A stretch of DNA of 64,000 bases from Pseudorhodobacter sp. PARRP1 (GTDB lineage: Bacteria > Pseudomonadota > Alphaproteobacteria > Rhodobacterales > Rhodobacteraceae): positions 62,001 to 126,000 of the forward strand of contig NKIU01000006.1 in assembly GCA_002256245.1 (NCBI GenBank), given 5' to 3'. The translations under genes and the position numbers were made by a program. The notes beneath the pieces were generated by a model. That model searched no databases. It was not told the origin of the DNA and saw only the letters and a program-made list of their open reading frames with translations. Positions 4,201 through 16,823 of this stretch are shown here, piece by piece. Position 1 is the stretch's first letter, and each line of letters begins with the position of its first letter.

Positions 4201-4329
4201 CGCATCCTCCTGCTTGCCAACAGCAAACCACGCCTGCGCCGGATGTCAAAGCCCGATCCCGCGCATGACATCTGCCGTCACCGCTGCAAGATCGCTTGCC
4301 CGGTGCCACAACCGGGGTATTCTGCCCCC

Positions 4330-6270
4330 ATGTTGCAGATATTTCGATCCGCCACGATTTTCCTTCTGCTGGCCGCGCAGCCGTTCCCAGCCAAGGCCGA
4401 ATTGCGCGCGGTGCTGGTCGGGGTTGGCGATTACCTGACGCTGGATGCCGATCTGAAAGGTCCCGCCAATGACGTGCGCCTGATGGCCGAGGTTTTGGTG
4501 GCACGCGGGATTGCGGCATCGGAAATCGCCGTGCTGACCTCTGATATCACAGGCCTGCCCGCTGGCGTCACAACCGCCCCGCCGACCAAAGCGGCGATCA
4601 TGGCCGCCCTCACCCAAGTTGCCACCCGCGCGAAATCTGGTGACACGGTGGTGTTCTATTTCTCGGGCCACGGCGCGCAGACGCCCGATCAAAATGGCGA
4701 CGAGAACGGCGGTTCTGACGAGATGTTCCTGCCCGCCGACGCCGCAGGCTGGAAAGGCGACATCGGCGCGGTGGAAAACGCGCTGACCGACGACGAGCTT
4801 TACGCTTGGGCGCAACCCCTGCTTTCGCGGGGGGTTAAGCTGGTCGGATTGATCGACGCCTGCCATTCCGACACCGGCTTTCGCGCCCTGCCCAGCCAAA
4901 GTGCTGTCGCGCGCGGTCTGGCACCGCAGGATCTGAACGTCCCCGATACTCTGGCCCCCACCACCACCGCAGCCGACACCCCGCCCCTGCAAGGCGATTT
5001 CGTGTTCCTCTATTCCTCGCAATCCGATCAACGCTCTTTCGAATATCCCGTGGGCAACACAGGTCTTTGGCAAGGTGCCTTCACCCGCCAACTCGCCGAG
5101 GTTTTGCGCACCAGCCCCACAGCGCCTTGGGCGCAGGTTTTGGCCGCCACCACCGCCACGATGCAACAGGGCACCACCCCGCAAATGCCGGATGGCGAAG
5201 GCTCGATGCTTGCCAGCAATCTGTTCGGCACCCCCGCGCCGCAACGCTTTGAGGTGCGCAATGGCGTGATCGAGGCGGGGCTTTTGCAAGGCCTGAACCC
5301 CGGCGACACGTTCTCACTTTATCCATCTGCCGAAGGCGGCACAGCGATCGCAAATGTCACCCTGAACCAAGTCGATGCCCGCAGCAGCCCGCTGCCGTCA
5401 GGCACCGTCAAGGCGGCTTGGGCCGAACGCGATCAGCCTGCCGCGCCCCCCACATTGCAACTGGCCGCACCGCGCATCGCGGTGGCCGACGACGGATATG
5501 ACTATTCCGCGTGGCGCGCGGCCTTGGCCGCCGCAGCCACCGCCTCTGCCCCCGCCGACCTGACGCCCATCCTGACCGAAGGCACCGTGGCACTGGCAGG
5601 CCCCGACGGCGCGCTTGATCCCCAAGGCCCCCACTCTACTCCACGCATCACGGTGCAGGCAGACGAGACGCCCGAACTTGCCCTGCAACGCAGTCTGGCA
5701 AATGCCGCCCAAAGCCTGCGCCTGCGCCGTCTGTTTGCAAGCGTGGCCGGGCGCAGCCTGACAGCGCAGCCGCCGCTCCAACTGAATTGGCAGCGCAAAC
5801 CCGCACCCGATTGCGGCCAGCCCGGCCCCGCGCAGCCGGTTGATCTGGCCACGGACGTGCAACCCTGCGATCAACTCTGGCTAAGCTTTCAAAACACCTC
5901 GGGCCGTGATCTGGATGTCTCGATCCTGTATTTCAACGCCGATTTCAGCATCACCCCGCTGTGGCCCCAGCGTGGCCTGTCCAACCGGCTGGCCGCTGGC
6001 GAAAACGCCCGCGCGGGGTTTCAGATCAACCCAGACTCCGCCGCCGCCGACGAGGATATCCTTGTGCTGGCCGTCCCTGTCGATCCCGGCGCAGCGCGGG
6101 TTGACCTGACCCTGCTGGCTGATCCTGCCACCCAACGTGGCGCGGGGGATTGGTTTTCCAAGCGGCTTGATGCCGACACCGCAACCCGCAGCTTTTCCAC
6201 CAAACCCCCGAAACTTCTGATGATCCGCCAAGTCGTGCGGGTCCGCCCCACGCTCAAGGGAGAACACTGA
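4330..6270 (+). CDS. secreted caspase-family (peptidase C14) protein, paralogue 1
   Basis: Protein of 646 residues. Residues 1-23 form a signal peptide ending PAKA, so it should act in the periplasm. A caspase p20-like domain follows: ELRAVLVGVGDY, KGPANDV, then catalytic His114 in YFSGHGAQ and Cys178 in IDACHSD. Between them is an acidic, Asp/Gly-rich stretch (DQNGDENGGSDEMFLPAD) typical of prokaryotic caspases. After a long Ala/Pro-rich middle, residues about 520-620 form a beta-rich module (DQLWLSFQNTSGRDLDVSILYF) that recurs in the second caspase at 14760 and resembles the DUF4384-type C-terminus of such proteins. The stop overlaps the start of the downstream protease (TGATG), so they are one operon. 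Substrate unknown; prokaryotic caspase homologues usually cleave after Arg or Lys. Confidence 0.88.
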   Translation: MLQIFRSATIFLLLAAQPFPAKAELRAVLVGVGDYLTLDADLKGPANDVRLMAEVLVARGIAASEIAVLTSDITGLPAGVTTAPPTKAAIMAALTQVATRAKSGDTVVFYFSGHGAQTPDQNGDENGGSDEMFLPADAAGWKGDIGAVENALTDDELYAWAQPLLSRGVKLVGLIDACHSDTGFRALPSQSAVARGLAPQDLNVPDTLAPTTTAADTPPLQGDFVFLYSSQSDQRSFEYPVGNTGLWQGAFTRQLAEVLRTSPTAPWAQVLAATTATMQQGTTPQMPDGEGSMLASNLFGTPAPQRFEVRNGVIEAGLLQGLNPGDTFSLYPSAEGGTAIANVTLNQVDARSSPLPSGTVKAAWAERDQPAAPPTLQLAAPRIAVADDGYDYSAWRAALAAAATASAPADLTPILTEGTVALAGPDGALDPQGPHSTPRITVQADETPELALQRSLANAAQSLRLRRLFASVAGRSLTAQPPLQLNWQRKPAPDCGQPGPAQPVDLATDVQPCDQLWLSFQNTSGRDLDVSILYFNADFSITPLWPQRGLSNRLAAGENARAGFQINPDSAAADEDILVLAVPVDPGAARVDLTLLADPATQRGAGDWFSKRLDADTATRSFSTKPPKLLMIRQVVRVRPTLKGEH

Positions 6271-7301
6271 TGAAACGCGCAGCACTTCTGGTTTGCCTGC
6301 TGATGGCCGTTCCCGCCATGGCCGAGGTGAAGCCCGATTTCACGCAAAGCCAACCCTCTGCCTTCAACTGGGCCAAAACCGGCGCCAAGGCAGCCTATCA
6401 GGCCAAGGCCGCTACAGGTGGCAAGGTTCTGGGTGGCAAGGTCTCGGAAAAAGGGGCGTGGCCTTGGCAGGTCGCGTTGCTGGTGGGCGGCGCGCCGGTC
6501 GGGCCGGATGCGCAGTTCTGTGGCGGCAGTCTGATCATGGACGATTGGGTGCTGACGGCGGCGCATTGCGTTCACATGCAGGACGCGCAGGGCAATTGGG
6601 GCGATCTGGACCCGAAAGAGGTTTCCGTGCTGGTCGGCAGCAACATCATCGCGCCGGGCAAGGGCGAGGTGATCGCGGTGAAACAGGTGTTCCGCCATCC
6701 CGATTATGTCGGCACCGGCTTTGATTTTGACGTCGCCCTGCTGAAACTGGCCCGCGCGCCACGGTTGCCGCATCAGGTGATCAAGGTGCCGGATGCGGCG
6801 TTTGGCGACGAGTTGGATCAGCCGGGGGTGATCACGGTGGTGACGGGTTGGGGGCTGGTCGAGGGCGGCGGCCACCCCGACGCGCTGCATGAGACCGAGA
6901 TTCAGATGCTGGACCGCGGCCTTTGCAATCAATCGCTGATGGCCGCGCGGACCGATGCGGCGGCGGAGGGGTTTGGCTATGCGGCGGAAATCCTGAGCCT
7001 GCGCGACGAGGATGCCTATCAGATTTGGGATGAGTTGGTTGGAAAAGCGCCGCCGCCGATGAGTGAGAATATGCTGTGTTCGGGCACCTTCGAGGGCGGC
7101 AAGACGGCCTGTTCGGGCGATAGTGGCGGGCCGTTGGTGGTGCCGCTGGAGGATGGAACCTATATTCAAGCCGGGATTGTCAGCTGGGGGCTGACCGCGA
7201 AAACGGGGGAAGGCTGCGAGGAGAAGGCGCTGTTTTCAGCCTATACGAAGACCGCAAAATTTGTGCCCTGGCTGGATCAGGTGATCAACGAAAATCCTTA
7301 A
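6270..7301 (+). CDS. secreted trypsin-fold serine protease (S1A), probable zymogen
   Basis: Protein of 343 residues with a signal peptide (residues 1-18, ending PAMA) and a propeptide of about 34 residues, then the S1A domain beginning K52-VLGG. The catalytic triad is His99 (LTAAHCV), Asp154 (FDFDVALLKL) and Ser285 (CSGDSGGPL). The Asp before the serine, needed for zymogen activation, is present, as are typical disulfide Cys pairs. The specificity position equivalent to trypsin Asp189 is Thr (GGKTACSGDSGG), so it probably does not prefer Arg/Lys. It overlaps the caspase gene by one base and is followed by a terminator. Activation by the co-transcribed caspase is my inference. Confidence 0.9.
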   Translation: MKRAALLVCLLMAVPAMAEVKPDFTQSQPSAFNWAKTGAKAAYQAKAATGGKVLGGKVSEKGAWPWQVALLVGGAPVGPDAQFCGGSLIMDDWVLTAAHCVHMQDAQGNWGDLDPKEVSVLVGSNIIAPGKGEVIAVKQVFRHPDYVGTGFDFDVALLKLARAPRLPHQVIKVPDAAFGDELDQPGVITVVTGWGLVEGGGHPDALHETEIQMLDRGLCNQSLMAARTDAAAEGFGYAAEILSLRDEDAYQIWDELVGKAPPPMSENMLCSGTFEGGKTACSGDSGGPLVVPLEDGTYIQAGIVSWGLTAKTGEGCEEKALFSAYTKTAKFVPWLDQVINENP

Positions 7302-9010: not shown

Positions 9011-10363
9011 TTATGTGGCAAGTTTCGGCCACAGCATCTCTACCGTCAGCCCCTTTTGCACCTCGGGCAGCGTCAGTTTTGCGCCGTGGCGGGCGGCGAT
9101 GGCGCGCACGAGGGCAAGGCCAAGACCGTGGCCTTGGATGCCGCGATCCTTGTCGCGAGTGGCGCGGGTGAAACGCTCGAACGCATCGTCGCGCAGATCG
9201 GGCGGCAGGCCGGGGCCGGTGTCGGCAAGGGTCAGGCGGTGGTGGTCGGGGTGCTGGGAGAGGGTAAGGGTGAGGGTATCGCCTGCCGTGCAGTATTTGA
9301 TGGCGTTGTCGATCAGGTTCGACAGCATTTGCGCGATCAGGTTGCGGTCGCCCAGAATATGCAGATCGGGCGTGCTGTGCAGGGTGCAGCGCAGGCCTTT
9401 GTCTTCGGCGAGCGGTTCATAAAGATCCCAGACTTCGGCTGTCACGGCGGACAGATCGACGGGCAGCAGGCCGCCGCCGCTGCCCTGATCGGCCTCGGCG
9501 CGCGAGATGTCGAGAAGCGAGTCGAACACCCGGATGGCGCGGCGCATCTCGGCCCGCAGATCGGCGGCAAGGGCGGGTTGGCCTTCGATCTGCGCCAGTT
9601 TCTGCATCATGCGGTTCAGCGGGGTGCGCAGTTCGTGCGCGATGGTGTCAGACAAACGGTGCGTGGCGCGGTTGAGGTTTTCGATACGGTCGAGCATGGC
9701 GTGAACATGGGTTTCCAAGAGGCCAAATTCATCGGGGCTGCGCGGGCCGGGGAGGCGGGCGGCAAGATCGCCGCTGGCCACCTGATCGGCAAGGCTGTTA
9801 AGGCGGCTGATGCGGGTCATCACCGATTTGGCCGCCAAGGTGCCGATAAGCGCGCCTGCGGCGAGCAGGACGATACCCAGCGCGGCCATACCTTTGCGCA
9901 GGCTGGCAAGGGTGGCATCGACAGGCTCGAGAGATCGGGCGACCAGCAAGGGAAAGCCCCCCGGCAGGATGCGGGCGACGCCCAGCCATTCGGTGCCGTT
10001 GTGGGTGAAGCGCTGCGCTTCGGCCCCCGAGAAATCGTCGTAGCTCGCGGTGGGGTCGCGGGCTTGGATACTGGCAGGCCATGTGGTTTCGGTGCCTGCC
10101 AGACGCTTGCCGTTGCGGTCTTGCAGCAGCAGCATCTCGCCGCCCGTGCTGGTGCGGTCGGTGATGGCCTGACGCAGCGCGATGATGCGGCGTTGTTGGT
10201 AAAGTGCAGAATAACCCGCCAGATCCGCGCTGAGGGCGGCGGTTGCGGCCTCGGTCAGTCGGGATTTCACAAGGCGGTATTGCAGGCCCATCGCCGCAAG
10301 CGACAACAGGCTGATGGCAAGTGCCATGATGGCGGCAAGTTTCAGGGTGGATCGCGCGATCAT
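9011..10363 (-). CDS. two-component sensor histidine kinase
   Basis: Membrane sensor of 450 residues: TM helix about 8-28, a periplasmic sensor region of about 125 residues, second TM about 157-178, HAMP linker to about 232, then the H-box SDTIAHELRTPLNR with His243 as the phosphorylation site. The ATPase part has NLIDNAIKYC, DTGPGLPP and GHGLGLALV. The start overlaps the response regulator stop by four bases. The upstream cotranscribed gene is a periplasmic PDZ protease and the divergent neighbour a multicopper oxidase, so envelope stress or copper is a plausible signal, but no ligand site is identifiable. Confidence 0.93.
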   Translation of the reverse strand: MIARSTLKLAAIMALAISLLSLAAMGLQYRLVKSRLTEAATAALSADLAGYSALYQQRRIIALRQAITDRTSTGGEMLLLQDRNGKRLAGTETTWPASIQARDPTASYDDFSGAEAQRFTHNGTEWLGVARILPGGFPLLVARSLEPVDATLASLRKGMAALGIVLLAAGALIGTLAAKSVMTRISRLNSLADQVASGDLAARLPGPRSPDEFGLLETHVHAMLDRIENLNRATHRLSDTIAHELRTPLNRMMQKLAQIEGQPALAADLRAEMRRAIRVFDSLLDISRAEADQGSGGGLLPVDLSAVTAEVWDLYEPLAEDKGLRCTLHSTPDLHILGDRNLIAQMLSNLIDNAIKYCTAGDTLTLTLSQHPDHHRLTLADTGPGLPPDLRDDAFERFTRATRDKDRGIQGHGLGLALVRAIAARHGAKLTLPEVQKGLTVEMLWPKLAT

Positions 10364-11055
10364 GGCGCGGGCAGCGGGGCGAAGACATAGCCCTCGCCGC
10401 GGGCGGTCTGGATGGCGTGCGATCCGGCGTCTTCCAGCTTGCGGCGCAGGCGACCGACATGGACATCGACAACATTGGTGCCGGGGTCGAAATGCAGGTG
10501 CCAGACGTTTTCCAGCAGTTGCATCCGTGTGACCACCTGCCCTGCGTTTTGCGCGAAATAAGTGATCAGTTCGAATTCTTTCGGCGACACGGCGACATGG
10601 GAGCGGTTGATGTGGACGGTGCGGGCCTTCATGCGGATTTCCAGCGCGCCGAACACCAGCAGGTCGTTGTCCTGCCCCTGCATGGTGGCGCGGCGCAGCA
10701 GGGCGCGCAGGCGGGCGCGCAGCTCTTCCGGCTCGAACGGTTTGGGCAGGTAATCGTCAGCGCCTTTCTCCAGCCCTTCCACCCGGTTGGCGGCGCGGCC
10801 CAAAGCGGACAGCACAAGGATCATGGCTTGCGCGCCAGTGCTGCGCATTCTGGCGATGGCTTCAACCCCGTCGCCACCCGGCAGCATCCGGTCAAGCACA
10901 ATGACGCGGAAGTCTTGCGCGCAAAGCGTGATACCTTCGGGCAGCGTGGTGGCGATGGTCGCAGCGCAGCCAAGCGCCTGCACCTCGTGTGCGATGGCAG
11001 CGGCGGTCTCGGGATCATCCTCGATGATCAGGATGCGGTCGGGTGCGGTGGTCAT
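10360..11055 (-). CDS. OmpR/PhoB-family response regulator
   Basis: Receiver domain (IIEDDPETAAA, phosphoacceptor Asp55 in VIVLDRMLP, Lys in YLPKPFEP) followed by a winged-helix domain (VSPKEFELITYFAQNAGQVV...VDVHVGRLRRKL...RGEGYVF), 231 residues in total. The partner kinase begins four bases inside its 3' end. The gene starts 25 bp after the PDZ protease stop, so all three are probably cotranscribed. Likely regulon candidates are its own operon and the divergent multicopper oxidase gene. Confidence 0.94.
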   Translation of the reverse strand: MTTAPDRILIIEDDPETAAAIAHEVQALGCAATIATTLPEGITLCAQDFRVIVLDRMLPGGDGVEAIARMRSTGAQAMILVLSALGRAANRVEGLEKGADDYLPKPFEPEELRARLRALLRRATMQGQDNDLLVFGALEIRMKARTVHINRSHVAVSPKEFELITYFAQNAGQVVTRMQLLENVWHLHFDPGTNVVDVHVGRLRRKLEDAGSHAIQTARGEGYVFAPLPAP

Positions 11056-11080
11056 GCGGGTTCCTTCGCTTCGGCTGATG

Positions 11081-12361
11081 TCAGAACACCACAACGTCGC
11101 GGTCAAGCACATTCGCGCCGCCGACGGGGTGAAGGGCTTTGCCGGTGGCCCAAGGGTCGATCAGCACGTGGCGGGTGCCGTTTGCGCTTTGGATCAGCAA
11201 AAGCACCGGCTGGGTGAAGGTTTGCTGCAACTGGGATTGCGCGGGTTGGCCGTCGATTTGCAGGATGGTGTCGTGGGCGGTCAGGCCTGCATTCAGCGCC
11301 GGTGAGTTGGGGGTGACGGCGGTGATCTGGGTTTGCTGAAGGCTGAGACCAAGGGTTTGCAGGGTGTATGCGCGGCGGCGCTGCGGTGTTGCGAGGTCGC
11401 GCAGGGTCAGCGGCGAGTCTGCGGTGGCGAGGTCTGCCATCAGGATCAGCACCGCCCCCGCGCGCAGGATTGTCAGATCAAGGCGGTTTTGCGCTTGGGC
11501 TGCCTGCAACGCGAAAGCGAGATCGCCGGGCGCGCTGAGAGGGGCTGCGTTGACGGCAAGGATCACATCGCCGGGGCGCAGGCCTGCGCGTTCGGCAAGG
11601 CCGCCCGTATCTGTGGCATCGACCAGCAATCCGGTGGGGGTGATGCCCAGCACCTGAGCCAGTTGGCGGCTGACCGGGCGGGCGGTGAGGCCAAGTTTCG
11701 GGATCGGTTGCAGGGTTTCGTCGATCAGGCCTTGCACGATGCGGGTAACGTCTGCGCTGGGGATGGCATAGGCGATGCCAACGAACATGCGGCTGCCATC
11801 GGCAATCTGGGCGTTCATGCCGACCAATGCCCCATTGGCATCTATCAGCGGCCCACCCGACGAGCCGGGATTGAGGGCGGCATCATGCTGGATCATGCGG
11901 ATCGGCGCGGCGGGGTCGGTTTGGCGCCCGAGCGCCGATATCCGGCCAGCGGTGGCGGTGAAATCGACATCGAGGGGTGCGCCCAGCGCCCAAACCTCGG
12001 CCCCCAACTGCGGCGGGTTGGGCGCGGCGATCAGGCCACCCGGCCCCGGCGCAATGGCAATCACCGCCACATCTCGGCTGGGATCGCTGGCGATCACGCG
12101 GGCGATTTGCTGTTGCCCTGCGGCATCCGTCAGGCGGACTTCGCGGGCCCCTCCCACCACATGCGCATTGCTGACGGCGACCGCGCCATCGCCCCACCGA
12201 AACGCCGAGCCGAGAAAGCGGTCTTCGGCGTCGGCGGTGTGGACGGTGAACACCGCAGCCATCGCGGCTTGCAGCATCGGCGCGTCAGAGGCTTGCGCAG
12301 GCAAGCACAGCAGGATGAGCGCACAGATGGCGCGGTGCAGGGTGATCAGGCAAAGGGGCAT
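11081..12361 (-). CDS. periplasmic HtrA/DegP-like serine protease with two PDZ domains
   Basis: Protein of 426 residues with a signal peptide (1-24, ending PAQA). The trypsin-like domain has His67 (SNAHVV), Asp97 (SRDVAVI) and Ser168 (NPGSSGGPL; most HtrA proteins read GNSGGP). Two PDZ-like regions follow, at about 215-305 (GLTARPVSRQLAQVLG...GDVILAVNAAP) and 340-420 (GLTAHDTILQIDGQPA). The start at 12361 gives a clean signal peptide. Its 3' end lies 25 bp from the response regulator, forming a protease-regulator-kinase unit. Probable envelope quality control or a regulated protease. Confidence 0.87.
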   Translation of the reverse strand: MPLCLITLHRAICALILLCLPAQASDAPMLQAAMAAVFTVHTADAEDRFLGSAFRWGDGAVAVSNAHVVGGAREVRLTDAAGQQQIARVIASDPSRDVAVIAIAPGPGGLIAAPNPPQLGAEVWALGAPLDVDFTATAGRISALGRQTDPAAPIRMIQHDAALNPGSSGGPLIDANGALVGMNAQIADGSRMFVGIAYAIPSADVTRIVQGLIDETLQPIPKLGLTARPVSRQLAQVLGITPTGLLVDATDTGGLAERAGLRPGDVILAVNAAPLSAPGDLAFALQAAQAQNRLDLTILRAGAVLILMADLATADSPLTLRDLATPQRRRAYTLQTLGLSLQQTQITAVTPNSPALNAGLTAHDTILQIDGQPAQSQLQQTFTQPVLLLIQSANGTRHVLIDPWATGKALHPVGGANVLDRDVVVF

Positions 12362-12450
12362 GAATATCCTCGGGTCAGGTCTTGGCGGCAAGGGTATCGC
12401 GGATGCGGCGGTGTGGCCCGTGACAAAGGCCGTCATGGCTCTGGCGGCGT

Positions 12451-12518: not shown

Positions 12519-12650
12519 AGAGGGCGCAGAGGTGGTGGGGGCGGTCTGAAAGCAGACTGCCCGCGAAGATGTGACTGGGGCTGCGACATTTTCGGCAAGG
12601 CGCGCAGGGGAAATCCGCGCTATGATTTGGCAGATCAAGGAGTGTTGCCC

Positions 12651-14060
12651 ATGTTGATCCGCCCGACGCGCCGCCGCTTTCTGGCCTCTGCCGCCGCTGT
12701 GCCTTTTGCGGGGTTGGCGCGCCCGCTGCGCGCCGACGTGGCCGAGATGAGCATCAGCACGCGGCAGATCGAGGTGTTGGGGCGGGCGGCCACGGTTTAC
12801 GGCTTTAACGGCTACGATGGGCAGTTGGGCTTTTATGGCAGCGCCGGGGATCGGTTTCAGCTTGGCATGCAGAACGACACCGATATCGACGTGATCACGC
12901 ATTGGCACGGGCAGGTGATGGCGGCCGAGGGGCAGGACAGGGCCTATACCGGTGGCGGGGCGCTGGCACCGGGGGCGGTGGATCAGATGGATTTTGCGCT
13001 GACACCGGGCACGCACTGGATGCACGCGCATCAGTTGAGCGAGCAAGCGCTGATGGCCGCACCGATGATCTGCCGCGAGGCGGATGCGCCGGATGTTCAA
13101 GAGCATGTGATCATGCTGCATGATTTCAGTTTCCGTTCCCCGGAGGAAATTCTGGCCGATCTGGGTGGATCGGACATGCACGGCGGCGCGGGCGGGATGG
13201 CCGGGATGGATCATTCAGGCGGCGGCATGGCGGGTATGGATATGGATATGGGCGGGATGATCCATGCCAACGACGTGGCCTATGACGCCTATCTTGCCAA
13301 CGACCGCACATTGGCGGACCCCGAGGTGGTGCAGGTCGAGGCAGGCACGCGGGTGCGGCTGCGGATCATCAATGCGGGCACCGCGACGGCGTTCTGGATT
13401 GATCCGGGGGTTTTGCAATCGGAAGCGATTGCGGTCGATGGCAATGCTTGTGCGCCGTTGCAGGCCAAGGCCTATCCGATGGCGCAGGGGCAGCGGCTGG
13501 ATTTGATGGTGACGATCCCGCCGCAGGGCGGGGCGTTTCCGATCTTTGCCCAGGTGGAGGCGGCACGGATGCGCACCGGGATCGTGCTTGCAACGTCCGG
13601 CGCAAAGCTGGAGCGGTTGGATGACATGGCCGAGGTAGAGGCTCCGCACGTTGATGCCTCATTTGATGCCGGGTTGCGGGCGGTGGATGCGCTGCCCGAC
13701 CGGACAGGCCAGATGGCGCATCTGATGTTGGGCGAAGAAGCAGGCTATCGCTTTACCATCAACGGGAAGGTGCATGGCGAAGACACGCCGATTGCCGTCA
13801 AAGTGGGGGATCGGTTGGAGTTGATGTTCATGAATATGGGCATGATGATGCATCCGATGCACCTGCACGGCCATCATTTTCAGGTGGTCGATGTCGGGAT
13901 GGGGCGGTTCAACGGGCCGCGCCGCGATGTGGTGGCGGTGCCGCCGCAGGGGATGGTGACGGTGGCGGTTGATCTGGATAAGCCGGGCAGTTGGTATCTG
14001 CATTGTCACCACCTTTACCATATGGCGACGGGGATGATGACAGAGGTGCGGGTCGCCTGA
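12651..14060 (+). CDS. multicopper oxidase, Tat-exported, Met-rich
   Basis: CueO/CopA-like laccase-fold oxidase of 469 residues. The N-terminus RRRFLASAAAVPFAG is a twin-arginine signal. Copper ligands are intact: HWHG (84-87), HAHQ (125-128), HPMHLHGH and HCHHLYHMATGM near the C-terminus. A Met/His/Gly-rich insert at about 176-205 (DMHGGAGGMAGMDHSGGGMA) suggests cuprous-ion binding. The usual role is periplasmic Cu(I) oxidation and copper tolerance. The ATG at 12651 has AAGGAG eight bases upstream. It is divergent from the protease/two-component operon. Confidence 0.92.
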   Translation: MLIRPTRRRFLASAAAVPFAGLARPLRADVAEMSISTRQIEVLGRAATVYGFNGYDGQLGFYGSAGDRFQLGMQNDTDIDVITHWHGQVMAAEGQDRAYTGGGALAPGAVDQMDFALTPGTHWMHAHQLSEQALMAAPMICREADAPDVQEHVIMLHDFSFRSPEEILADLGGSDMHGGAGGMAGMDHSGGGMAGMDMDMGGMIHANDVAYDAYLANDRTLADPEVVQVEAGTRVRLRIINAGTATAFWIDPGVLQSEAIAVDGNACAPLQAKAYPMAQGQRLDLMVTIPPQGGAFPIFAQVEAARMRTGIVLATSGAKLERLDDMAEVEAPHVDASFDAGLRAVDALPDRTGQMAHLMLGEEAGYRFTINGKVHGEDTPIAVKVGDRLELMFMNMGMMMHPMHLHGHHFQVVDVGMGRFNGPRRDVVAVPPQGMVTVAVDLDKPGSWYLHCHHLYHMATGMMTEVRVA

Positions 14061-14170
14061 TGACAGATGACAAATGCTGTCAGCGGTGTTTCTGAACTTT
14101 ACAGGCGCCGTGCTGCACCGCATCTTTCGACGCGACGGCCCTTGCGCCGTTCTTAGCCCAAGGTCTCGCC

Positions 14171-14755
14171 ATGCTGCGCCTGACGTCATTGCTTGCCGTG
14201 TTGGCGCTGCCGGCGCTGGCCGCTCCGCCGTCGGGGGTGAAGGTGGCGGAACTTTCGGCGCAGCTTTATGCGGCTGGGATGCAGGCTGGCGATCCGATGC
14301 TGCTGATTGCGGCGGCAAAGCTGCGCAAGCAGATCACGTTTCGCGGCAACGGCGCGGCTCCGCTTGGCTGGGGCGCGATGCTGGCGCAGGCCGAGACATT
14401 GGCGGCAAACGATGAGGCGCTGCTGGCGCTGATCGGCGATGTGCGTGCGGAAAGCCTGAAGGGCGTGGCCTCGGGGCCGATGTATCAGATTGGCGCATTG
14501 GCGCGCGGCGGGATTGATACCTTCCCCGGCATGGGCTTTGCGACAGGGGATTACGCCGAGATTTATGTCGAGGCCAAGACGGACACCGACCTGAACCTTG
14601 AGGTGCGCGACAGCACCGGCCGGGTGGTTTGTGTCGATACCGATCCGTCACCGATTGCCTATTGCGGCTGGACGCCTGCGGGCGCCGGCGATGTTGTGGT
14701 GCAGGTGGAAAACGCAGGGTCGCAGGCGACCGGCTATGCCTTGATGACGAATTGA
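14171..14755 (+). CDS. secreted protein with pre-peptidase C-terminal-like domain, caspase partner
   Basis: Protein of 194 residues with a signal peptide (1-17, ending ALAA), a helical middle (VAELSAQLYAAGMQAGDPMLLIAAAKLRKQ) and a C-terminal beta sandwich (YAEIYVEAKTDTDLNLEVRDSTG...GDVVVQVENAG). The latter resembles pre-peptidase C-terminal domains of secreted proteases. Two Cys (VVCVDTD, AYCGW) could form a disulfide. It lies four bases before the second caspase gene and is surely cotranscribed. A role as inhibitor, chaperone or substrate-recruiting subunit is possible but unproven. Confidence 0.8.
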   Translation: MLRLTSLLAVLALPALAAPPSGVKVAELSAQLYAAGMQAGDPMLLIAAAKLRKQITFRGNGAAPLGWGAMLAQAETLAANDEALLALIGDVRAESLKGVASGPMYQIGALARGGIDTFPGMGFATGDYAEIYVEAKTDTDLNLEVRDSTGRVVCVDTDPSPIAYCGWTPAGAGDVVVQVENAGSQATGYALMTN

Positions 14756-14759
14756 CGCC

Positions 14760-16823
14760 ATGACACTCAGCCACACCTTGCGCGCGGGATTTGTGGCGGC
14801 GGTTCTGGCCGGGGCGGCGCTGCCTGCCCTTGCCCGCGAGAACTTTGCGCTGCTGATCGGCGCTGCAGACTATAAGAACCTGGACCAGAAATACTGGCTG
14901 AAAGGCCCCGCCAACGATGTGCGGCTGGTGCAGACCTATCTGACCACGCAAAGCCCGGTGCCGTTTGCGCCGCAGGATGTGATCGTGCTGGCCGATGGGG
15001 TAACGGGCGCGCAAGCCCCGACTTTGGCCGCGATCCGGGCTGCGGTGGCCGATCTGACGGCGCGGGTGCATCCCGGCGATTTCGTTTACCTGCATTTTTC
15101 GGGTCACGGCTCGCAATCGCCGGCGCTGCATCCCGAGACGGAACTGGACGGGCTGGACGAGACCTTCATGCCATCCGACATCGGACCATGGGAAAACGCC
15201 GTGGGCACCGTGCAGAACGCCCTCGTCGATGATGAGATCGGAGCGATGATCGACGGGTTGCGCGCCAAGGGGGCCGATGTCTGGGCGGTGTTTGACAGTT
15301 GCCATTCGGGCACGGTGACGCGCGCGCTGGACGAAGACGACGTGCGGCTGCGCGAACTGCCGCCCGAGGCTTTGGGGATTCCGGCAGCGTTGATGGAGGT
15401 TTCAACGCGCGCCTTGCCGAAGGTCGAGGCACCTTTTGAGCAGGCCGAGGCTGCCGGAATGGGCAGCTACGTCGCGTTCTTTGCCGCGCAAACCAACGAA
15501 GTGACGCCCGAGAAAAACCTGCCCAAAGGCAAGCCGGGGCGGGTGCCGCAGGGGGTGTTCACCTATACCTTGTTCGAGGTGCTGGCGCAGAATCCGGGCG
15601 CGAGTTACGGGCAGATCGGGCAGGAAGTGTTGCGGTCTTATGCCACCAAGCGGCTGGCGACCACGACGCCGATGTTCGAGGGCGATCTGGATCGGGTGGC
15701 GTTTTCCGGCACCAAACAGGACCGGGTCGCGCAATGGTCTGCCAGTGTCGATGGCGATGTTTTCACCATCTCGGCCGGGTCTTTGCACGGCCTGACCGAA
15801 GGCGCCGTGCTTGCGGTGATGGCGAAGGCAACCGACGGCGATGACGCGGCGCTCGGCTATGTGAAACTGACCTCGGTCGAGACGTTCAGCGCGCAAGGTC
15901 AGGCTGTTGCCGGGGATAAACCGCTGCCCTCCGATCTGCCGAAGGGGTTCATGCTGCGCAAGATCGGCAGCGATGTGGATTTCAGCCTGACGGTGGCCCT
16001 GCCCGCCCAGCAGGATTCTGCGGTTAGGGCGGCATTGGACGCTGCGATGAGGGCGTTGCTGGCGGCCTCGGGCCCCCGGCTGGTCTATGTGCCTGCGGGA
16101 GCCGAGGCCGATCTGCGGCTGGCGGTGATCAAAGACAGCCCGCGCCCGGATGCGATCTGGGTGCTGCCCGCCAGCGGGTTGGTGGCGGATTATGCGACCA
16201 CGCCTTCCGTGTCCACCAGCGACAAGGATGCGACCGCGCTGGGGGAAACCTTGGCCGACACGCTGACCACGATGGCCCGCGCGATCAATCTGCAAAAGCT
16301 GGGTGCGGCGGTGGGTGCGGGCAGCCTGAATGTCGATGTGGCGTTGTTGACGGGCAAGAACAAGAACGCACTTCAAGTGGCCAAACCCGCCGAGGTGCCA
16401 CATTTGGTGCCTGATGATCAGGTGCATATTCTGGCACGCAACAACATGGATCAACCCGTTGATATCAATGTTCTTTATATTGCAGCAGACTTTGCGATCA
16501 GCCATTGGTTTTCGGGCAGGTTACAGCCCGGCGATACGCTGAAAAAGGGGCTGTTCAAGATCGGCACGGATGTTTTGGGCGACGAGCGGATGATCGTGGT
16601 GCTGACCCCTGCCCTGCCGCAATCTCCGGTCGAGGATCTGAGTTTTCTGGCGCAGGATGCGCTGGACACCACACGATCCTTGGGTGGATCAAGCCTTTCC
16701 GCGGCCTTGGGGGAAGCGGGTTTCGGACAAACCACCCGCAGCGCGATGGCGCTGGAGGATGACACGACCGGCCCCGCGCCGGGGATCATCGAATTGGAAT
16801 TGCGCACGGGTCTGGCAGAGTAG
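14760..16823 (+). CDS. secreted caspase-family (peptidase C14) protein, paralogue 2
   Basis: Protein of 687 residues: signal peptide 1-26 (ending PALA), then a caspase-like domain with NFALLIGAADYKNL, KGPANDVRLV, catalytic His116 (LHFSGHGSQ) and Cys181 (VFDSCHSGT). A region binding or shaping the S1 pocket (LDGLDETFMPSD) follows the His. Residues about 560-640 (DQVHILARNNMDQPVDINVLYIAADFAI) match the C-terminal module of the first caspase at 4330. Its upstream partner is the secreted beta-sandwich protein rather than a protease. Periplasmic location argues against a simple cytoplasmic cell-death role. Confidence 0.88.
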   Translation: MTLSHTLRAGFVAAVLAGAALPALARENFALLIGAADYKNLDQKYWLKGPANDVRLVQTYLTTQSPVPFAPQDVIVLADGVTGAQAPTLAAIRAAVADLTARVHPGDFVYLHFSGHGSQSPALHPETELDGLDETFMPSDIGPWENAVGTVQNALVDDEIGAMIDGLRAKGADVWAVFDSCHSGTVTRALDEDDVRLRELPPEALGIPAALMEVSTRALPKVEAPFEQAEAAGMGSYVAFFAAQTNEVTPEKNLPKGKPGRVPQGVFTYTLFEVLAQNPGASYGQIGQEVLRSYATKRLATTTPMFEGDLDRVAFSGTKQDRVAQWSASVDGDVFTISAGSLHGLTEGAVLAVMAKATDGDDAALGYVKLTSVETFSAQGQAVAGDKPLPSDLPKGFMLRKIGSDVDFSLTVALPAQQDSAVRAALDAAMRALLAASGPRLVYVPAGAEADLRLAVIKDSPRPDAIWVLPASGLVADYATTPSVSTSDKDATALGETLADTLTTMARAINLQKLGAAVGAGSLNVDVALLTGKNKNALQVAKPAEVPHLVPDDQVHILARNNMDQPVDINVLYIAADFAISHWFSGRLQPGDTLKKGLFKIGTDVLGDERMIVVLTPALPQSPVEDLSFLAQDALDTTRSLGGSSLSAALGEAGFGQTTRSAMALEDDTTGPAPGIIELELRTGLAE

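Follow-up and report, generated by a model that had tools for sequence, protein, structure and literature searches.

The window analysed here, i.e., a stretch of 64,000 nucleotides of Pseudorhodobacter sp. PARRP1 (contig NKIU01000006.1, positions 62,001 to 126,000), carries two adjoining genes that are the subject of this study, namely, one for an exported caspase of the metacaspase type (casp1) and one for an exported serine protease of the chymotrypsin fold. The stop codon of casp1 (TGA, 6268-6270) and the ATG of the protease gene overlap by one base, the A of TGATG. In Pfam, Peptidase_C14 is matched by casp1 residues 26-298 (E 3.1e-26) and the Trypsin domain by protease residues 54-335 (E 4.3e-45). 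The casp1 dyad (His114 and Cys178) is kept in 67 of 67 aligned casp1 proteins and the protease triad (His99, Asp154, and Ser285) in 64 of 64 aligned proteases, window copies included, and both N-termini are Sec-like by a simple rule. The gene overlap, a signal peptide on each protein, and these catalytic residues had already been described in an earlier sequence-only reading, which proposed a periplasmic proteolytic cascade, and all three descriptions hold.

Relatives were gathered by a profile search of genome contigs with an alignment of casp1 only, and the best 80 of 471 relatives were kept as loci. Five of these are Hyphomicrobiales and were set aside; the other 75 belong to the Rhodobacteraceae taken broadly (some are Roseobacteraceae according to NCBI) or loosely labelled metagenome-assembled genomes. 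The casp1 alignment (A4) comprises 66 of the 75 loci plus the window, with nine partial or split loci excluded, and the protease alignment (A3) comprises 63 of 66 casp1-adjacent proteases plus the window, with L111 and L131 (both partial) and L151 (odd boundaries) excluded. Among the best 80 of 471 relatives, the nearest to casp1 are those of Cypionkella, at 72% identity.

Metacaspases take Lys or Arg at P1, and an S1 pocket of Cys92, Asp95, Ser156, and Asp211 has been suggested for TbMCA2 (PMC4357240). These residues align to P45, D48, S112, and D176 of casp1, of which D48, S112, and D176, the Lys/Arg pocket of metacaspases, are unchanged in 67 of 67 proteins, and the position of Cys92 is Pro in 66 of 67. 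Three of the four aspartates of the TbMCA2 calcium site have counterparts in casp1, namely, D130 (67/67), D154 (66/67), and D155 (67/67). By its residues, casp1 is filed as metacaspase-type (C14B), and Lys/Arg specificity is predicted. Plant metacaspases are nearest to the casp1 structure model (predicted local distance difference test, pLDDT, 89), in which loop residues 186-188 and 190-193 have a pLDDT under 50. Around this poorly ordered loop behind the catalytic Cys, T182, F184, and R185 are invariant, and Arg or Lys occupies position 195 (all 67/67); residues 182-195 are a possible self-processing site. Against the NCBIfam model caspase_w_EACC1 (conflict-type caspase), casp1 scores 44.8 bits, under the cut-off of 140. 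A PADLOC scan covering casp1, the serine protease, and casp2, a second caspase of the window, gave matches of the generic 'caspase' model to casp1 (1.5e-22) and casp2 (1.3e-25), and weak LmuA and Avs1b matches to the serine protease.

The protease has the features of S1A, namely, a PF00089 domain, the His/Asp/Ser triad, and a zymogen motif. Ahead of the V/I/G-x-G-G motif, P1 is Lys in 37 and Arg in 27 of the 64 aligned proteins. Residue 189, numbered by alignment to matriptase and the chymotrypsin numbering, is Thr in 58, Ser in 2, Gly in 2, Val in 1, and Leu in 1, i.e., acidic in 0 of 64, and every one of the 64 has Ser at position 226. With neither position acidic, cleavage after Lys or Arg would not be expected of this protease; it would need another activator, since its activation site is Lys/Arg while its own S1 pocket is without Asp189. 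Its residues mark it as a protease of S1A fold that is predicted not to be a trypsin by specificity, and it looks like a zymogen unable to activate itself. In its structure model (pLDDT 84.5), the activation loop (residues 48-53) is one of the least ordered parts, with a pLDDT under 50.

As a control, 32 PF00089 hits at E 1e-25 were taken from 248 family genomes, and 30 of these loci were read. Twenty have a same-strand caspase in the 1.5-kb flank, and their residue 189 is Thr (15), Ser (1), Gly (1), or Asp (3). The ten without a flanking caspase have Asp in seven and Asn in one, the motif being missing in two (Asp189 in 7 of 8 readable cases), and P1 in the six of them with a readable site is Glu, Gln, Arg, Thr, Arg, and Ser (Lys/Arg in 2/6). 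Besides the casp1-adjacent proteases (group A), two further arrangements were observed. In group B (L076-L079 and L093, with L080), another exported caspase adjoins a related serine protease, and 5 of 5 group B proteases have Lys/Arg at P1 and no Asp189. In group C (L218, L220, L222; L249-L251), the exported caspase is of a third kind (AGHG, DACRNN) and the protease has an open frame of 501-513 aa. The three Asp cases with a flanking caspase are those of group C, and they speak against a general rule. Trypsin-like self-activation was judged unlikely for groups A and B, in which residue 189 is never acidic, and possible for group C. In a small tree, the adjacent proteases (A, B, and C) split from the unlinked ones with a support of 0.97. 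The caspase tree differs: group B caspases go with casp2 (0.92), casp1 goes with Hyphomicrobiales caspases (1.0), and group C lies far off (24 and 26 rows, midpoint-rooted, with weak deep caspase nodes). This suggests that caspases have been exchanged around one protease lineage, the sample being small and the rooting by midpoint.

The protease lies directly after casp1 in 66 of the 69 assessable Rhodobacteraceae-type loci (six of the 75 stop at a contig edge), a figure that is not biased towards the protease because the query was casp1 only. The sequence-only reading had named casp1 homologues mostly devoid of the protease neighbour as the outcome that would speak against a cascade; most of them have it, although the five Hyphomicrobiales do not. 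The protease gene follows casp1 and not casp2, and travels with casp1 in split clusters. A further survey took in 295 family genomes, of which 28 have a caspase match at E 1e-10 or lower and 16 a close casp1 (E below 1e-100). Among the latter, 13 have a full adjoining protease match, one (G022) has a fragment at a contig end, and one (G028) stops at a contig end. Protease matches at E below 1e-100 occur in 13 of the 295 genomes, every one adjoining casp1. The survey's other genome of the source genus (G247) has none. The module is thus scattered in the family and not universal. Plasmids, too, gave casp1 matches, with 46 records from Pseudosulfitobacter, 2 from Sulfitobacter, and 1 from Mesorhizobium (49 in total), and the one plasmid region read (Pseudosulfitobacter) carries the whole cluster.

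The pair belongs to a larger set of genes (Table 1). A two-component system, an HtrA-like protease, and casp2 lie 1.7-9.5 kb downstream of it in the window, casp2 being 8.5 kb beyond casp1. The counterparts of casp1 D48, S112, and D176 are kept in 16 of 16 casp2 proteins. The small exported partner is here given the provisional label PPC, and X260, another small exported gene near many clusters, is a homologue of it. The start of HtrA is likely at 12361. The six core genes (casp1, protease, casp2, HtrA, regulator, and kinase) are found in 48 of the 75 fetched stretches, and all eight genes (the core, PPC, and a patatin) in 33 of 75. In a comparison of 32 fetched stretches and the window, the usual order has casp2 and the small exported protein running one way, and HtrA, regulator, kinase, patatin, casp1, and protease the other. 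The window is rearranged and has no patatin, with casp1-protease (4330-7301) followed by kinase-regulator-HtrA on the opposite strand (9011-12361) and PPC-casp2 (14171-16823). No patatin match at E 0.001 was obtained in the genome itself, in a search run without a positive control. A CopA-like multicopper oxidase lies between HtrA and PPC (12627-14060) and is seen elsewhere in L095, L096, and L123 only; at 3 of 80 loci, it was ruled out as a core member.

Table 1. Genes and CusR-like palindromes of the caspase-protease cluster in the window.
Feature	Position	Strand	Remarks
CusR-like palindrome before casp1	4265-4281	-	score 15.5, third in the 64-kb window; 48 bases upstream of the start codon
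casp1, exported metacaspase-type protease	4330-6270	+	ATG at 4330; 646 aa; C14 domain 26-298 plus C-terminal half
Chymotrypsin-fold (PF00089) protease, putative zymogen	6270-7301	+	343 aa; activation site K52|VLGG, codon 6423-6425; residue 189 = Thr279
Sensor histidine kinase	9011-10363	-	best NCBIfam match CzcS/SilS/CopS, under cut-off
OmpR-type response regulator	10360-11112	-	best NCBIfam match CzcR/SilR/CopR, under cut-off
Exported HtrA-like serine protease, two PDZ stretches	11081-12361	-	open frame extends to 12598
CusR-like palindrome before HtrA	12420-12436	-	score 25.6, best in the window
CusR-like palindrome before PPC	14067-14083	-	score 24.5, second in the window
PPC, small exported protein	14171-14755	+	194 aa; no Pfam match
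casp2, second exported caspase	14760-16823	+	35% identity to casp1; retains the catalytic and S1 residues

Export appears to be common to these proteins. By the simple rule, N-termini are signal-like in 57 of 67 casp1, 61 of 64 protease, 49 of 50 casp2, 43 of 49 HtrA, 41 of 51 PPC, 34 of 39 X260, and 40 of 42 patatin proteins, whereas the comparison sets gave 4 of 56 for response regulators and 12 of 188 for internal segments; the rule does not tell signal peptides from membrane anchors, the kinase anchor being positive as well (55/56). The earlier statement that the exported pair comes without a nucleoside triphosphatase (NTPase) agrees with the scans, which were limited to recurring neighbour genes and found none among them. 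Five neighbouring genes of the window were scanned as well and have roles in metabolism or translation.

A palindrome, ATGACGGnnTTTGTCAT, is common to 46 of 47 PPC/HtrA intergenic regions of the relatives. A 17-column matrix was built solely from these regions, its core being chosen after the casp1 sites had been seen, and a box was called where the score reached 8 within a stretch running from 200 bases upstream to 30 bases into the profile match. With this matrix, a box is found at the heads of transcription units, in 50 of 50 HtrA and 48 of 51 PPC regions (training), in 66 of 74 casp1 and 38 of 38 X260 regions (test), and in 3.6% of 6000 random windows. Before operon-internal genes it is found in 0 of 57 (kinase), 2 of 51 (casp2), 3 of 42 (patatin), 7 of 66 (protease), and 8 of 55 (regulator) cases. 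The three best boxes of the window stand before HtrA, PPC, and casp1, and the fourth-best (14.7) lies elsewhere. An earlier 23-column matrix had scored at least 8 at casp1 in 43 of 78 loci, Hyphomicrobiales included, and in 4.1% of random 360-base windows, the lower casp1 scores arising because the right end of that matrix is specific to the HtrA/PPC region. No box was found before the Hyphomicrobiales caspases (0/5), and those loci show no such two-component system. The regulator resembles the CusR/CopR type without being filed as a member, and, judging from the palindrome, it may bind the box. Apparently, the cluster is a larger, co-regulated unit, and a stand-alone casp1-protease pair is ruled out by the larger cluster and the common box.

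Taking these observations together, we lean slightly towards the view that the pair would serve as the effector arm in a protease cluster acting outside the cytoplasm under sensor control, with casp1 as the activator of the serine protease. In such a scheme, I) the CopS/CusS-like kinase may respond to a cue from the envelope, possibly copper or damage by oxidants, and the CusR-like regulator would switch on the units headed by HtrA, PPC-casp2, and casp1-zymogen; II) the cluster proteins would be exported, as their N-termini suggest; III) Lys/Arg-specific casp1, likely aided by the calcium available outside the cytoplasm, would cleave the zymogen behind Lys52, so that the freed Val53 could form the active site; and IV) the activated protease, together with HtrA and often a patatin lipase, might act on envelope or surface targets in quality control or self-destruction. 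A wider version is put forward tentatively and may well be wrong, namely, a Rhodobacteraceae extracytoplasmic zymogen cascade driven by caspases, in which the CusS-like sensor would set the stock, casp1 or casp2 would ignite the zymogen, itself unable to do so, and lipase, HtrA, and sometimes CHAT/TPR proteins would execute envelope remodelling or self-lysis; it may be likened to serine-protease cascades such as complement or Toll, the initiator here being a metacaspase. Of the periplasmic cascade proposed in the sequence-only reading, the conserved exported pair stands, with a residue-level reason to expect activation, while the pair is no stand-alone operon and belongs to a larger cluster. 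Most bacterial caspases have, to our knowledge, no known natural substrate. In the conserved partner, a candidate cut site is defined and the residue signature would explain the need for a caspase, and substrate, order, and compartment become directly testable. If true, caspase signalling would take place outside the cytoplasm and be governed by a classical two-component system.

Several observations weigh against activation by casp1 under common control. The cut of the zymogen by casp1 is something we infer, and the agreement of P1 in 64 of 64 proteases reflects conservation among orthologues of common descent, not 64 independent events. The fourth TbMCA2 calcium ligand, Asp220, has no clear casp1 counterpart. 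Three casp1 loci (L146, L147, and L155) and one of the 16 close-casp1 family genomes (G005) are without the protease, as are 5 of 5 loci of Hyphomicrobiales, the nearest casp1 relatives outside the family. Group C (three loci) adjoins an exported caspase yet keeps Asp189, and with its site R|VMGG it could activate itself. As for the regulation, the casp1 box is the weakest of the three in the window, and both Cypionkella relatives are under the threshold at casp1 (L095 at -2.8, L096 at 7.3). When at most one mismatch is allowed, the whole genome has 49 occurrences of the pattern and 8 of the reversed control, the window casp1 box not being among the 49; the box is therefore not exclusive to the cluster, and three further exact matches without a tie to cluster genes and 44 one-mismatch places were recorded. 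Two of five group B caspases exceed the box threshold with poor matches (9.5-9.6). Kinase and regulator both score under their curated family cut-offs (regulator, 165.9 versus 279.2 bits for CzcR/SilR/CopR). Lastly, casp2 has the same predicted specificity, and casp1 need not be the activator.

The most serious alternative, which we nevertheless regard as rather doubtful, is that these are independent proteases co-regulated in an envelope stress regulon, the serine protease being activated by a general protease. The presence of HtrA in 51 of 64 and of the kinase in 59 of 70 assessable loci would fit this, as would the likeness of kinase and regulator to metal-stress systems and the multicopper oxidase that the window and three of the 80 loci have within the cluster. 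It leaves unexplained why the caspase-adjacent groups A and B are without Asp189 yet have Lys/Arg at P1, and why the protease lineage stays caspase-adjacent while the caspase lineage changes. That casp2 is the activator, or that both caspases act in series with casp1 having another substrate, seems unlikely: the S1 residues are the same in the 16 casp2 proteins and the casp2 unit has the same box, but the protease gene stays with casp1 even where the cluster is split. We give little credence to a death module acting on the envelope in response to phage, predators, or as self-lysis, with the patatin lipase as membrane effector. A patatin occurs in 43 of 70 assessable loci, 30 of the 42 patatins checked have a lipobox, CHAT and TPR proteins extend some clusters, and the presence is patchy and partly plasmid-borne; on the other hand, no infection sensor was seen, with no search aimed at defence genes around the loci, the five scanned neighbours are of another kind, and the window genome gave no patatin match in the uncontrolled search described above. 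The reverse order, in which the serine protease would process casp1, e.g., at R195 in its flexible loop, a position that is always Arg or Lys, is very improbable, as cleavage after Arg would not be expected of a protease in which neither 189 nor 226 is acidic.

Compared with known systems, casp1 is like type I metacaspases and bacterial orthocaspases (TbMCA2, Yca1) in its C14 fold, His/Cys dyad, D-S-D S1 pocket, and three of four calcium-site aspartates, and unlike TbMCA2 and Yca1 in being exported, in its long C-terminal half, and in its apparently sensor-regulated cluster with a serine-protease zymogen. In the antiphage canu caspase-nuclease defence, a caspase activates a pro-nuclease encoded adjacent to it (PMC12799240); here, too, a proenzyme is encoded beside a caspase, its putative activator, but it is an exported serine protease accompanied by a two-component system. 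Alphaproteobacterial pseudo-orthocaspases combine an N-terminal trypsin domain and a Gln-Cys dyad in one polypeptide (PMC6426788). They link the same two folds within the same bacterial class, whereas the present proteins are encoded by two genes and the His-Cys dyad is intact. The sequence-only reading regarded caspase-trypsin partnerships as known from bacterial conflict systems, which is not the rule: in an eLife 2020 survey, trypsin and caspase peptidases are mutually exclusive in vWA-MoxR systems and are both effectors in others (PMC7159879). The present cluster shares the two peptidase superfamilies with these NTP-dependent systems, but has both together and exported, and the recurring genes that were scanned include no such NTPase. 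The regulator type and the TGAC...GTCA palindrome in a divergent intergenic region recall CusRS/CopRS, the E. coli CusR palindrome being AAAATGACAAnnTTGTCATTTT (PMC11195947); the box here has a spacing one base longer, and its targets are proteases. Metacaspase operons with proteolysis domains have been surveyed (PMC3501461), in a main text that contains no word starting with Rhodobacter or trypsin. No account of the cluster was found in open-licence full texts, subscription papers, preprints, and supplements being out of reach. The whole is a variant, not described in the open-licence papers searched, of systems in which a protease activates a proenzyme.

Some minor observations concern individual loci. 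The casp1 frame is broken or split in L063/L101 (G121), L091/L131, L165, and L172; the adjoining protease reads through as a single open frame in L101, L165, and L172, and is cut by a contig end in L131. The Hyphomicrobiales relatives (L169-L171, L173, and L174) have no protease and a weakly PPC-like gene soon after the caspase. Two genomes (L087 and L088) have tandem caspase-like genes in a different context. In some clusters, an exported TPR protein of ~900 aa follows the protease, with an exported CHAT protein nearby (e.g., L195:14005-19259), and TPR matches were found in 17 and CHAT matches in 20 of the 80 loci. At the group B locus L078, the neighbouring genes encode a TPR-CHAT protein of 1180 aa together with a divergent DUF900 hydrolase, and the neighbours at L076, L077, and L080 are similar in size.

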